Of a stretch of 64,000 nt of DNA, positions 30,148 through 47,406 are shown piece after piece. Origin of the DNA: a virus; the IMG/VR virus record IMGVR_UViG_3300020183_000016, positions 61,741-125,740 of that record, one strand, 5' to 3'. The notes below the pieces were generated by a model. That model worked only from the letters and a program-made list of their open reading frames with translations. It was not told the DNA's origin and searched no databases. Within the stretch, counting starts at the first letter, position 1, and each line of letters begins with the position of its first letter. The translations under genes and the position numbers were made by a program.

Positions 30148-31059
30148 ATGAAGATAATTGTAAATAGAAGTCAGTATAATAAAGTCATTAATGAAACTAG
30201 AGGTTACTCTAAAACAGTTGAAAATTGGGCGGATTATGTCACTGATGAATTATTACCTTTAATAATTAAACAAGATGTAGTAGAAGATGTTTACACATTA
30301 AAAAAATTATCTTTAAAACTTAAAAATAAAAATTTTTACGAAGAAATTCCAATAGATAGTATTATTATGACTGTAATAATCAATGATATTGAGGGTGATT
30401 CGGCGGATATTAATATGGGATATAATCCATATTATACGCAAGTAGTAGAAAATGATGACAACACTTATAATATTTTAGATGTAGAATTTGATGTGGTGAT
30501 GAATTTACCTATAAATAGATCGGATATTGAATATGATACTTTACATTATTATTTTTCTTCATTTTTGTCTCATGAATTTATGCATGTATATGAATGGTTG
30601 CAAAGAAATTTGGAAACCCCTAAAGAAATAAAAGGTTGTGAAGATGTATATAAAGAAGGGGATATTAATGGGGACGCAGTAGATAGGATAGGATATTTAT
30701 TATATGTAACACAATCTTTTGAAATAAATTCATTTGTCCAACAAGCAGCTACAATGATTTCTAAATTAGAACCAAAAGATAATAATGAATTTTTATTATA
30801 TTTAAAAAATTTACCAATTTATTCATACGTTGAAACGATGTTAAATTTTAATAAAATCGATTATTTATCTGAAATTGAAAATTTAACTAATGATAGAAAA
30901 AGTAAACTTTACAATATGATTATGTGTTTTTACCATATTGATGGTAGATTACCTAAAATAAAATCTATTGATAAATTTTTAAATGATATTGATAAAAAAT
31001 TTAAAATAACTGGTGAAACATTTAAAAGAAAATTATTAAGATTAATAACTGTAATATGA
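30148..31059 (+). CDS. Zinc metallopeptidase-like cargo protein (HExxH)
   Basis: The 303-residue protein begins MKIIVNRSQYNKVINE, a targeting-like N-terminus. Around residue 147 it has FLSHEFMHVYEW, an HExxH zinc-protease motif, followed by a long helical C-terminal region. The protein may be packaged in the head and delivered with DNA, or cleave virion or host proteins. It overlaps the start of the next gene by four bases. Confidence 0.65.
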   Translation: MKIIVNRSQYNKVINETRGYSKTVENWADYVTDELLPLIIKQDVVEDVYTLKKLSLKLKNKNFYEEIPIDSIIMTVIINDIEGDSADINMGYNPYYTQVVENDDNTYNILDVEFDVVMNLPINRSDIEYDTLHYYFSSFLSHEFMHVYEWLQRNLETPKEIKGCEDVYKEGDINGDAVDRIGYLLYVTQSFEINSFVQQAATMISKLEPKDNNEFLLYLKNLPIYSYVETMLNFNKIDYLSEIENLTNDRKSKLYNMIMCFYHIDGRLPKIKSIDKFLNDIDKKFKITGETFKRKLLRLITVI

Positions 31060-33875
31060 AAAGAATTTTAATTAATGAAAAACAATATAAAAGATTAGTT
31101 CATTTATTAAATGAGCAGCATATAATTTTTAGAAATAAAGAAGATGAGAAAGATACTAGTCATGAAATATTGGCTACATTAGTTTATTTAACAGGTATTT
31201 TTAAAGAAAAAAATATCAAAAAAGATATTTTTGTTGATAAGATAGAGGATGGTATTGTTTATTTAGACGCTAAAGAATATACGTCAGAAGAAATTTCTAT
31301 GATAGAAAAAGCTATTTCTGATTATATTAAATATGGTACTAACCCAAGAGACAAAATTTTAAAAAATGATTTAGGTTTTGATAGTGGTATAGATACTGAT
31401 GGAGATAATGATATTGCAGATGTAGATTTAGATAATAATGATGTTGCAGATATAGAAGATGATAGTGATGTTGCAGATATAGAAGATGATAGTGATGTTG
31501 CGGTTATAGAAGATGAGGATGAAAAAGTATATAAAGAAATAGAGGCGTGTAATTTCGGTATTAATTCAAAAGGTAAAAAAAGAAAAGTGATATTACCTCC
31601 AGCTATGGACATTAGGTTTTATCAAGATATATTAAAAAAGTTAGGCACTAAAGTTACATGTCAAAAAATGTTATTCTTTTTTGCTTGGAGAGATGGTGAA
31701 AGTTCAGAGTCTACTTATAATCCATTCGCTACAACACATAAAGATAGTAAAAATGAAGGTTGTTACTATAATTGTTTAAAAAATGGTGTTGGGTATACAC
31801 CTACTGATTGTAGAACTTGTCCATCTGGTACGGTTCCAGGTGTAAGGAATTATAAAACATATGATTCAGGTTTAAATGCCACAGTTGAAACATTAACCAA
31901 CGGTAGATACCCCAATGTTGTTAGAAAATTAAAAAATGATAATATTACTGCATTAGAAATTGCTTCAGAAAAATCGGAATTAAGAATTTGGGGTACAGGT
32001 GGTTTAGTGCATGATATACTTAGGTTAAATAATACCTTATTAGTAAATAGAATTGCAAAACCTGATGGTAATACAATTGTTGAGGAAGATTGTACATTAA
32101 CTACGAATGAATATAAATATTTTAAAGAACATATTCGTAATAAAAAAGAAGGGGATGCTTTCAGAAGATGGGTTAATTCAGATGAAACTAGATTAAATAA
32201 TATTAATAGAAAATTATCTAATTGTGAAAAATTTAGTGGTTTAGAACTTTCTGGGGAGGTAAATGATTACGTTGAATTAGCATTTAAATATAAAGGAAAA
32301 GAATGGGTTAAATTAGGAAAACCTGGTGTTGGAGAAGAAGTAGTTGATAGTAAAAAAGATACGGAACTAAGAAATAAAATTATAAAGTATGCGGAAACTA
32401 AATTAGGTGAACCATACATATGGGGTAAAGAATTTGATGGTAAAGGGGGAGATTGTTCTGGTTTAATAGACAATGTTTTAAGAAATGTTCCAGGAATAAC
32501 TTCACCTTATAATGGTAGAGAGACATCCGCAGTTTTAAAAAAATTAGTTTTAGGTAAAAATGTTGGTAAGAAAAGTGGGCTTAAAAAAGGAGATATATTG
32601 GTATTCAACCCAAGAGCGGGAGGAAAAATAGGTCACGTAGGTTTTGTGCATAACGTAAATAATGATGGGACTGTGGATATGATACATGCGAGTTCAGGTA
32701 ATGGGGTTATAGTACAAAAAAATATATTTAAAAGTGGGTTGGCTAAAAGATATTACGGGGCGTTACCGATAGTAAATGGTAGATACGAATCATCAAGTAG
32801 TGGGAATCTTGGTAGTAAAAGTGATGATTATGAAAGTCCTGATAGTAGGAATGATGAGAATGATTGCCCTAACTACGATTGCTGGACATATTTTGGTAAA
32901 GAATCCTTTTGGGATGGTAAAAATAAAGTAAATAATATTACTGTACCTAAAATTACAATAAAAAAATCAACGGATTTATTTAAGATAACATATAAAGGTG
33001 TACGTTCAGGATTATTACTGAAACATGGTAATGGAGGTAAAAATGATACCATACACCAACTTTTAAATGTATTAACATTAGAGTTAAATAAATACTTAAA
33101 AGAAAATTATTTAAAACCTGTAGTTAAATCGATTAAAATGAATTTAGTTGGTAATAGTTTAACAGTTGAGGTACCATTGGTAAATTCAGTAAATAAAAAA
33201 TATATAATTGATAGAAGGGGATCTTTAGGTGGAAAAATAGATGATAGTGGACTTAAAAAATATGAAAATATGGATGGTTATGAAGTTGCTACACATGTAT
33301 CTGATGATTTAAAAGAAAAATTTGTAACTGTAATAACTTCAAAAGAAGAAGAGAACAAACCTCCTAAAGTAATTACCCAACCTAAAAAGGGATCTAAAAT
33401 TACTATTCCTACAAAAGCAAGATTAACTTCAGCACCAACGGCAAATAGATGGGGTAGACCACATCATGGTTATGATATAGTTGGGCCTTATTCTGGATAT
33501 AAATGTTTAATAGTATGTAATAAACCAGGAGTAGTTACTTATGCGGGACGATGTGGTGGGTATGGTAATTTAGTAGAAATACGTCATAATGATGGAACAT
33601 ATTCTGCATATGCTCACTTACACAAAATTTATCTTGTAGGAGGTCAAAAAGTAAATATTGGTGTTGTTATAGGTATTGAGGGTAATACGGGAGGATCTAT
33701 GGGTAGACATTTACATTTTGAGGAAAGAGTTAAAAGACCTAAAGGTAAAAAGAATAGATGTGGTGAAGGGTCACCATATAATGAGGTAATTGGTTATATA
33801 AATAAACAAGGTAAAAGTTTAGTTAAACCAGTTAGTAATCTAAATAATTACTTTTATTTTCAAGAATTAGGATGA
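31056..33875 (+). CDS. Giant cell-wall hydrolase with NlpC/P60 and M23 domains
   Basis: This 939-residue protein starts with MKRILINE and a second LLNE site. Then come an acidic repeat region (about 115-165, repeated DVADIEDDS), a Cys-rich segment (GCYYNC...DCRTC near 235), an NlpC/P60 domain at about 441-570 (GGDCSGLID with the catalytic Cys, GHVGFVHN with His, DMIHASS), a linker, and an M23 zinc endopeptidase near 799-915 (RPHHGYDIVG, YAHLH, GRHLHFE). Both domains cut peptidoglycan peptides. The size and position suggest a virion-associated wall-degrading enzyme used in entry. Confidence 0.85.
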   Translation: MKRILINEKQYKRLVHLLNEQHIIFRNKEDEKDTSHEILATLVYLTGIFKEKNIKKDIFVDKIEDGIVYLDAKEYTSEEISMIEKAISDYIKYGTNPRDKILKNDLGFDSGIDTDGDNDIADVDLDNNDVADIEDDSDVADIEDDSDVAVIEDEDEKVYKEIEACNFGINSKGKKRKVILPPAMDIRFYQDILKKLGTKVTCQKMLFFFAWRDGESSESTYNPFATTHKDSKNEGCYYNCLKNGVGYTPTDCRTCPSGTVPGVRNYKTYDSGLNATVETLTNGRYPNVVRKLKNDNITALEIASEKSELRIWGTGGLVHDILRLNNTLLVNRIAKPDGNTIVEEDCTLTTNEYKYFKEHIRNKKEGDAFRRWVNSDETRLNNINRKLSNCEKFSGLELSGEVNDYVELAFKYKGKEWVKLGKPGVGEEVVDSKKDTELRNKIIKYAETKLGEPYIWGKEFDGKGGDCSGLIDNVLRNVPGITSPYNGRETSAVLKKLVLGKNVGKKSGLKKGDILVFNPRAGGKIGHVGFVHNVNNDGTVDMIHASSGNGVIVQKNIFKSGLAKRYYGALPIVNGRYESSSSGNLGSKSDDYESPDSRNDENDCPNYDCWTYFGKESFWDGKNKVNNITVPKITIKKSTDLFKITYKGVRSGLLLKHGNGGKNDTIHQLLNVLTLELNKYLKENYLKPVVKSIKMNLVGNSLTVEVPLVNSVNKKYIIDRRGSLGGKIDDSGLKKYENMDGYEVATHVSDDLKEKFVTVITSKEEENKPPKVITQPKKGSKITIPTKARLTSAPTANRWGRPHHGYDIVGPYSGYKCLIVCNKPGVVTYAGRCGGYGNLVEIRHNDGTYSAYAHLHKIYLVGGQKVNIGVVIGIEGNTGGSMGRHLHFEERVKRPKGKKNRCGEGSPYNEVIGYINKQGKSLVKPVSNLNNYFYFQELG

Positions 33876-44729: not shown

Positions 44730-44903
44730 ATGAGTTTATCTAAAAAAGTTTATGAAAATATTAAGTATGAGGAACAAAAAAATACTCACACTGAAAACGA
44801 ATGGTTAGATAGAATATTATACACCAAAGATAAAATAAAAAAAAGTTCTTTGAAATTTGGGGATGGTTTTGGATTTGACAATCAAAGGTTGAGTTCGAAA
44901 TGA
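44730..44903 (+). CDS. Short ORF or first exon, 57 codons
   Basis: ATG at 44730 opens a frame with phage-like codon use (MSLSKKVYENIKYEEQ, then FGDGFGFDNQRLSSK) that stops at TGA 44901. No family is recognised. The frame could be a complete small protein, or the 5' part of a gene split by later elements in this unit, since two further protein-like segments follow in other frames (44933-45048 and 45043-45084). From 44904 to the intron at 45236 I see hairpins and these fragments but no ordinary gene. Confidence 0.4.
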   Translation: MSLSKKVYENIKYEEQKNTHTENEWLDRILYTKDKIKKSSLKFGDGFGFDNQRLSSK

Positions 44904-45235
44904 TGCAAGCCGAGTTAGATGGAAACTCGTAAATTACCTATCAAAATATAAATGCAAACGCATACAACGTAGAGGATATCATGAGTATCCCAACTTCTAT
45001 CACTCGCTCAGCGATGGTTGAAGAGATGGAATCAATCGAATTGGTTTAATCGGTGGGTCACACTTACCTAGAAACAGAAAGGTGTAAAAATAGAGTTGAT
45101 CGTTAATACTCTTTAAACAATTGATGAAACAGGGTTGTTGGATAACCATGTTATAAATAAAACCAAATATTTTGTTTGTTTAGAAAAATGAACTAAGCTT
45201 GTGAATGAATTTCTAATGTCGATTTGGTTGGACGA

Positions 45236-45593
45236 GGGTTTGAGTGCGGACCCACTTATTGGTGACAGTAAGTTAAAAATCGGATGAATTGCTGGAACGC
45301 TAAGTCTTTTTAAGATATGCCAATCAGCAGCCAAGCCTACAGAGTAGGAAGGTTCAGAGACTATTGGGGATTATAGCGATATAATGTAATACCAACTAGA
45401 GCGTCCGACATCTTTAGTAGATGATGATATAGTCCAGACAATAATGAAAATTATTGATTATAGCGACTCCCTCCATCTCCACGATGGGTTAAATTAAATA
45501 ATGCGATCATCTAACCATGAGGATTTACTTGCAGGAGTCCAAAGGACGAACATCGGATAAAGGAAGAACACCTGATTTAACCCTTTTTTTTTG
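45236..45593 (+). ncRNA. Group I intron core (IA-like)
   Basis: The core elements appear in order: P1 GGGTTT/GGACCC (45236/45248), P2 ACTTA/TAAGT (45254/45269) with a GGTGAC loop as in T4 td, P3 TCGGA/TCCGA (45280/45404), P4 GCTG/CAGC (45291/45325), P6a CCTAC/GTAGG (45336/45344), P7 GACTA/TAGTC in GTTCAGAGACTA and ATATAGTCC (45359/45430), P8 CATCT/AGATG (45409/45419), P9 CAATAAT/ATTATTG with GAAA loop (45439/45450) and P9.1 GACTCC/GGAGTC (45465/45534). The 5' splice site should follow T45240 or T45241; the 3' site is uncertain, with G45593 a candidate. No endonuclease ORF lies inside. Confidence 0.85.
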
Positions 45594-45666
45594 CACCATT
45601 TCTACTTCTCAAGAGTAGACAGTTGTAACGACAAGAGACATTGCTCAACAATTCTCTTTCAAGAAT

Positions 45667-45894
45667 GTGAATGATTCTGATACAGACATGAGAACCTGTA
45701 TAGTAACAAAAAACTTTATTATGGGAAATACAGAATGGGTAAAAGGATTACTTGGTGATACTAGAGTATTTAACAATGAATACCAATTTAGAAACTATGA
45801 TGGTAGTATAGAATCTTTTAGTTCAATGGAAGAATTAGAAGATTACTTAAAAGAATACTTTTTGTATATATGTGAGTTATCACAAACTTCATAG
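45667..45894 (+). CDS. Short ORF downstream of the group I intron (possible exon)
   Basis: The 75-codon frame from GTG 45667 (NDSDTDMRTCIVTKNFI, then SIESFSSMEELEDYLKEYF) is open upstream to 45619 without an ATG, which fits either a GTG start or an exon. The mix of residues and the codon use look like real protein. It is flanked by two elements, CAGTTGTAAC (45620) and CTGAGTGCAGAGGG (45902), that also occur at 59350 and 59461. Confidence 0.45.
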   Translation: MNDSDTDMRTCIVTKNFIMGNTEWVKGLLGDTRVFNNEYQFRNYDGSIESFSSMEELEDYLKEYFLYICELSQTS

Positions 45895-45990
45895 TGTATA
45901 CCTGAGTGCAGAGGGTTCACTAGGTTTCTTTATTCCTTAAAAAAAAATAAAGTGGTGGAAGTAGATAGTGATCCTATCGACCCTTTTAAA

Positions 45991-46911: not shown

Positions 46912-47406
46912 ATGGAAAAGGTATTAGTTTTAAATAATGACTATACCCCATTAAATGTAACCACACTTAAAAGGGGTTTTAAGTTAGTCTATAAAGGTAA
47001 GGCAGAAATAGTTTATTCTGATGAGACAAACCCTATTGTATCCAGTTTTAAAAACTTCACTAGACCATCTGTTATTAGGTTGAATAGATTTATCTATACC
47101 CCCTTTAAAAAAGTTCCTTTAAGTAGATATAATATTTTTAGGAGAGATGGACATAAATGTGTTTATTGTGGAACAAATAAAAATTTAACAATCGATCACG
47201 TAATACCTAAATCTAAAGGTGGTGACAATACTTGGAAGAATTTAGTTACTTGTTGTGGTGTATGTAATCTTAAAAAGGATGATAGAACACCAGAAGAGGT
47301 GGGAATGGGATTTTTAAGAAAACCATTTGCACCAACATACATCCAATTCATAGAAAGAATGAATGGTATAATTAAAGAAGAATGGAAACAATTTTTAATG
47401 ATTTAA
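46912..47406 (+). CDS. HNH endonuclease (bacterial-type, CxxC zinc ribbon)
   Basis: The 164-residue protein opens with VLVLNNDYTPLNVTTLKRGF and has the HNH core from about residue 83: CVYCGTNKNLTIDHVIPKSK then WKNLVTCCGVCNLKK. This version occurs in many bacteria and phages, with four Cys binding zinc and the DH/N residues binding the catalytic metal. It is free-standing. The role may be packaging-related cleavage, mobility or defence; context does not decide. Confidence 0.85.
   Translation: MEKVLVLNNDYTPLNVTTLKRGFKLVYKGKAEIVYSDETNPIVSSFKNFTRPSVIRLNRFIYTPFKKVPLSRYNIFRRDGHKCVYCGTNKNLTIDHVIPKSKGGDNTWKNLVTCCGVCNLKKDDRTPEEVGMGFLRKPFAPTYIQFIERMNGIIKEEWKQFLMI

Follow-up and report, generated by a model that had tools for sequence, protein, structure and literature searches.

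Sequence anatomy of a phage tmRNA gene split in its T-loop by a group I intron, and of the long tag that it encodes

What does a group I intron interrupt when no join of its flanks yields a long open reading frame? The question was raised by a locus in the window, that is, the whole stretch of 64,000 nucleotides analyzed here, which is part of a viral sequence of 125,740 bp that encodes a tail sheath of the T4 type as well as a DnaB-like helicase. The first-pass annotation placed a group I intron core at 45236-45593 and supposed that it lay either in a structured RNA or in a gene in decay. The comparison with the Rfam group I model that it proposed gave a match to the full RF00028 model (1-253) at 45230-45456, with 100.3 bits (E value of 8.8e-25, cut-off of 50). 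All intron core strands were intact in this alignment, and the strand GGTTCAGAGACTA occurred once in the window (0 expected). By means of RF00028, a gapped alignment to an intron-free relative (L020) and a covarying fold, the intron was delimited to 45241-45463 on the plus strand, comprising 223 nt with no ORF and ending, as the terminal-G rule demands, in G45463. P1 (45236-45253, plus strand; read directly and from the RF00028 alignment) pairs the exon sequence GGGUU (45236-45240) with the guide GACCC (45249-45253), and the U-G pair that marks the 5' splice site is formed by U45240 and G45249. The conserved P3-P8 core was recovered together with P1 and P9 by both RF00028 and the fold. In the consensus fold of this intron and four relatives, 28 of the 55 pairs were kept through two-sided changes in at least one sequence, including pairs in P2, P3, P8 and P9. 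P10 could be drawn for only ca. 2 bp and is not claimed. Thus, the intron itself is real, but its boundaries had been set too wide, since the stretch up to 45593 consists of the 3' exon of a tmRNA (45464-45481) and a long inverted repeat that leads into a run of nine T's. On direct reading, this repeat is a possible terminator (45486-45592, plus strand), with 10-bp arms (45486-45495 and 45574-45583), a loop of ca. 80 nt and the T9 run. The fold of the whole segment was not significant (z of -1.16), and the idea that 45482-45596 holds another structured RNA was therefore rejected.

The interrupted gene was also recognizable from its own model. In spite of the split, RF00023 matched at 44868-45256 with 61.6 bits (cut-off of 47), overlapping the 5' end of the intron match, and ARAGORN called no tmRNA in the unspliced window. 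Joins between 5' sites at 45232-45247 and 3' sites at 45455-45477 were run through ARAGORN, and among the joins listed, a tmRNA was called solely for those that bring the two parts of the T-arm together. The 45240|45464 join combines U-G pairing at position -1, a terminal G and the canonical TTCGANT loop; it restores the T-loop TTCGACT and the T-stem GAGGG/CCCTC, upon which ARAGORN calls a tmRNA, and the exon junction reads GAGGGTT|CGACTCCC. The phage tmRNA gene extends from 44859 to 45481, with the intron inside the T-loop. Its 5' exon (44859-45240, plus strand; RF00023, ARAGORN on the spliced sequence and alignment to L020) runs from the acceptor 5' strand GGGGATG through the mRNA-like part to the TT of the T-loop. 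The 3' exon (45464-45481, plus strand; ARAGORN and L020 alignment) contributes CGACT (T-loop), CCCTC (T-stem), CATCTCC (acceptor 3' strand) and an A as discriminator, and the CCA is not encoded. Joined in this way, the exons make up a tRNA-like domain with its T-arm and, from a reading of the sequence, a 7-bp acceptor (GGGGATG/CATCTCC) whose third pair is G-U (G3-U70), the alanine signature of tmRNA. The absence of a long ORF from any join, correctly described in the first-pass annotation, is therefore explained, because the exons are tmRNA, and the suspected structured RNA has been identified. Judged from the sequence, the anatomy of a split phage tmRNA is all but certain.

The empty site in relatives leads to the same gene. 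In L020, which comes from a 253.9-kb viral contig, 15 ORFs around the tmRNA match those at 38.5-50.4 kb of the window (69 to 95% identical), and the tmRNA is intron-free and 92.3% identical to the joined exons. When long gaps were allowed in the alignment, the 223-nt gap fell exactly at TT|CGACT, and L015 and L021 agreed with this empty site. This is the kind of intron-free relative that had been sought for the exact exon sequence, and it carries a tmRNA there rather than a protein gene. Many phage group I introns do interrupt protein genes, with similar ones in terminase and ribonucleotide reductase, so that exons of a protein gene might have been missed; however, this idea, which we ruled out through the intron-free ortholog, has a negligible probability, as the joins make a tmRNA as well. 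Decay of the tmRNA, the other possibility raised at the outset, was rejected because no damage is seen in the tag frame, the acceptor stem or the T-arm, the stems being paired, and these features are conserved in three close relatives. It is likewise very unlikely that the intron no longer splices and that the gene is silenced or decaying. The window tag does lack the LAA end of most relatives, but its ELV end is common to the close relatives, the core strands and both splice-site rules are preserved, and the exons retain 92% identity to L020 with the tag frame open and the stems paired.

The interval between the tmRNA and the next shared gene (45485-45990 of the window) is ca. 440 nt longer than in L020 and contains the long inverted repeat with its T9 plus a 75-aa ORF (45667-45894). 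An HNH endonuclease is encoded at 46912-47406, 1.4 kb downstream of the intron, and since it is also present in the intron-free L020 and L021, it is not obviously tied to the intron.

Group I introns in the tmRNA T-loop are known at four subsites, positions 2, 3, 7 and 8, and all cases reported for position 3 are in the class Bacteroidia, according to PMC11915505, which gives 883 unique sequences of intron-form bacterial tmRNA genes. Following the subsites of that source, the exact empty site places the window intron at position 3. The same source lists 79 phage tmRNAs, and its main text describes no phage intron form. Phage-carried tmRNAs as such are known from mycobacteriophages, Bacillus phage G and huge phages (PMC4131195, PMC7162821); unlike them, the tmRNA in the window is split by an intron and encodes a 31-aa tag with EDxMSIPTS. 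With the intron-form bacterial tmRNAs it shares the T-loop group I intron, the position and the U-G and terminal-G rules, but it differs in its phage genome and its long tag.

The window is not the only such case. We found five further intron-form phage tmRNAs, namely, L004 (in the 735-kb phage LR756501), L005, L018 (partial), L240 and L241, all with the intron inserted after the same TT; the L004 intron would end in A instead of G. The 735-kb phage also has an SmpB. The L240 intron (L240:2071-2790, in the tmRNA T-loop) contains, after P9, an ORF in antisense orientation that, from a GFFDADGS motif read by eye, looks like a LAGLIDADG homing endonuclease. In the cellular Bacteroidia genome L066, an intron abuts a tmRNA and is readable as position 3. 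In a FastTree phylogeny, the six phage tmRNA introns clustered together (support of 0.97) next to phage-gene introns and separate from that of L066, although this is only suggestive, the tree being small (ca. 220 nt, with a single cellular intron at position 3). Several similar introns of the phage collection sit in terminase and ribonucleotide reductase genes; these have a core 70 to 76% identical to that of the window and are its neighbors in the tree, but the exon of the window intron belongs to a structured RNA and not to an ORF. To judge from this tree, the introns of phage tmRNAs may also differ in kinship, their clade being distinct from the one cellular Bacteroidia tmRNA intron sampled. 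What this intron interrupts is now settled, and tmRNA T-loop introns are extended to phages. Standard tools overlook such genes, as ARAGORN was silent not only on the window but also on the 735-kb phage locus.

The position of the intron, reported only from Bacteroidia, together with promoters of the Bacteroidota type, indirectly suggests a Bacteroidota host for the phage. One such promoter (TTTG-N20-TATATTTG; 44677-44708, plus strand; pattern search) lies upstream of the tmRNA, and the pattern TTTGN{19,21}TANNTTTG occurred 11 times in the window versus 2.67 expected, a number reached in 0 of 100 shuffles. SmpB was found neither in the 125.7-kb record, which may be incomplete, nor in the 26 other viral records tested. 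Three tRNA genes (Leu-CAG, Leu-TAA and Arg-TCT) and a weak tRNA match (61144-61231) lie at 59223-61231 of the window.

How might the split gene work? Before splicing, P1 of the intron would hold the 5' half of the T-stem and loop (GGGUU), so that the tRNA-like domain should be unable to form at this stage. Guanosine-initiated splicing at 45240|45241 and 45463|45464 would free the intron and create the T-arm, and self-splicing of this intron is very likely. The mature tmRNA would be charged with alanine through G3-U70, would have its CCA added by an enzyme and would rescue stalled ribosomes, adding the 31-aa tag, with the SmpB of the host, which is expected because none was found in the phage record. 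Building on the observed anatomy, the exact empty site and the relatives, we consider the best explanation, and a highly probable one, to be a phage tmRNA interrupted in its T-loop by a group I intron, with the splicing, charging, rescue and tagging that would follow.

The tag proved to be the more surprising result, the intron being of a known type in a new setting. According to ARAGORN, its reading frame (44954-45049, plus strand) runs from the resume codon GCA (44954) to the stop codon TAA (45047-45049) and reads ANAYNVEDIMSIPTSITRSAMVEEMESIELV. This 31-aa tag contains EDIMSIPTS, beginning with ANAYNVEDIMSIPTS and ending in ELV. An LAA-type C-terminal end is usual in tmRNA tags, albeit not universal, and most relatives do end in AA; the window, L015, L020 and L021 have ELV in its place, and the window tag may therefore not act as a degron. 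The DNA pattern GATATNATGAGTATCCCNACNTC matched 24 viral contigs, always in tmRNA-type tags. With a codon-degenerate pattern of the motif, 51 viral contigs were matched, all 51 in short frames of the same layout that end 20 to 30 codons later, mostly in AA, or meet the end of the locus; RF00023 confirmed a tmRNA in 27 of the 30 viral loci tested. Scans anchored outside the tag added further members (EDMMSFSTS, EDVMSLPTS and EDIMSIQTS) as well as a second tag family, exemplified by ANVELSTMTFEDAMSFVGVDLAVAA.

Could the motif be a host feature? Across 84,980 species genomes, the AGT form had no matches and the degenerate form had eight, none of them a tmRNA tag, and sampled Bacteroidia host tags were of 8 to 10 aa (for example, GENNYALAA) and free of the motif, so that this origin was rejected. 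A copy of another phage protein was discarded too, as the motif is absent from all other ORFs of the 125.7-kb record. A tblastn search of four tags against a phage collection gave nothing convincing and did not find the tag in isolated phages, the queries being very short. In one text collection, no text had MSIPTS or the phrase "phage-encoded tmRNA," which is not proof of novelty. By its sequence distribution, this is a phage-specific class of tmRNA tags, with an ED-x-M-S-I-P-T-S segment encoded partly by hairpin H5.

H5 (GGATAT-CATGA-GTATCC; 44974-44990, plus strand) encodes the EDIMSI part of the tag and is, in the Rfam alignment, the helix after the resume codon, with the motif inside. The motif might be only a by-product of RNA constraint on this helix, the peptide having no role. 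The hairpin is under selection, as shuffling synonymous codons by column weakened it (z of -6.9, 0 of 1,000 shuffles; z of -2.5, 11 of 1,000, in the second family), with z values inflated by shared ancestry, although at least three codon solutions exist nonetheless. However, the stems vary by lineage (GAA-GAC with TCT, GAG-GAC with TCC and GAG-GAT with AGT) while the amino acids remain unchanged, and residues beyond the stem (TS) are kept too. Over the motif, pN was 0.11 and pS was 0.62 in the PTS family, values partly biased by the search pattern; in the EDAMSF family, which was not found through the tag, they were 0.14 and 0.50, and its paired synonymous sites were GAT with GCA and GAC with GCG. 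We regard RNA constraint alone as unlikely. A separate peptide (MSIPTS...) starting at the conserved ATG within H5 is highly improbable. This ATG is near-universal and some members have an AGGA-like stretch upstream, but the upstream residues ED are conserved as well, the EDAMSF family sometimes has ATC or TTG there (L291 and L258), and Shine-Dalgarno sites are rarely used by Bacteroidota.

The motif in these alignments shows both peptide conservation and compensatory synonymous pairing, and the tag of these phages therefore appears to extend across H5, with the degron moved downstream. Since the segment is conserved as a peptide and not only as RNA, it may be recognized by a protease, an adaptor or a targeting factor. 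More tentatively, and with doubts outweighing confidence, phages of Bacteroidota and perhaps of other hosts may have rewired their tags by means of an H5-encoded ED-x-M-S-(I/F) and a relocated degron (lost in the lineage of the window), directing proteins that are tagged during infection to a protease, adaptor or location different from that of the short host GENNYALAA-type tag, and the self-splicing T-loop intron may serve some of these phages as an on-switch. The analysis has brought to light a class of tags in phage tmRNAs that share a conserved, hairpin-encoded core, and why a phage supplies its own ribosome-rescue RNA becomes a testable question; the modified tag suggests an altered fate of unfinished proteins rather than merely extra rescue capacity.

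Some observations concern other tags and leaders. Long tags of the EDAMSF family (for example, VELSTMTFEDAMSFVGADYAVAA) were found in viral contigs (L245, L247, L248, L249, L258, L260, L264, L291 and others), and here, too, the synonymous changes in that hairpin come in pairs. Another type of long phage tmRNA tag, ANADTFDFSAMSFTGNTVRGAANESRFALAA, was present in L137, L172, L175, L194 and L230. Finally, the phage proteins encoded at L235:4163-4645, L235:4698-5291, L235:10603-14097 and 31056-33875 of the window have similar N-termini (MKRRLVRLTESDLTRIVRRVI, KIFITENQYKRIF and RILINEKQYKRLV), which may represent a leader that targets the capsid or is cleaved off.
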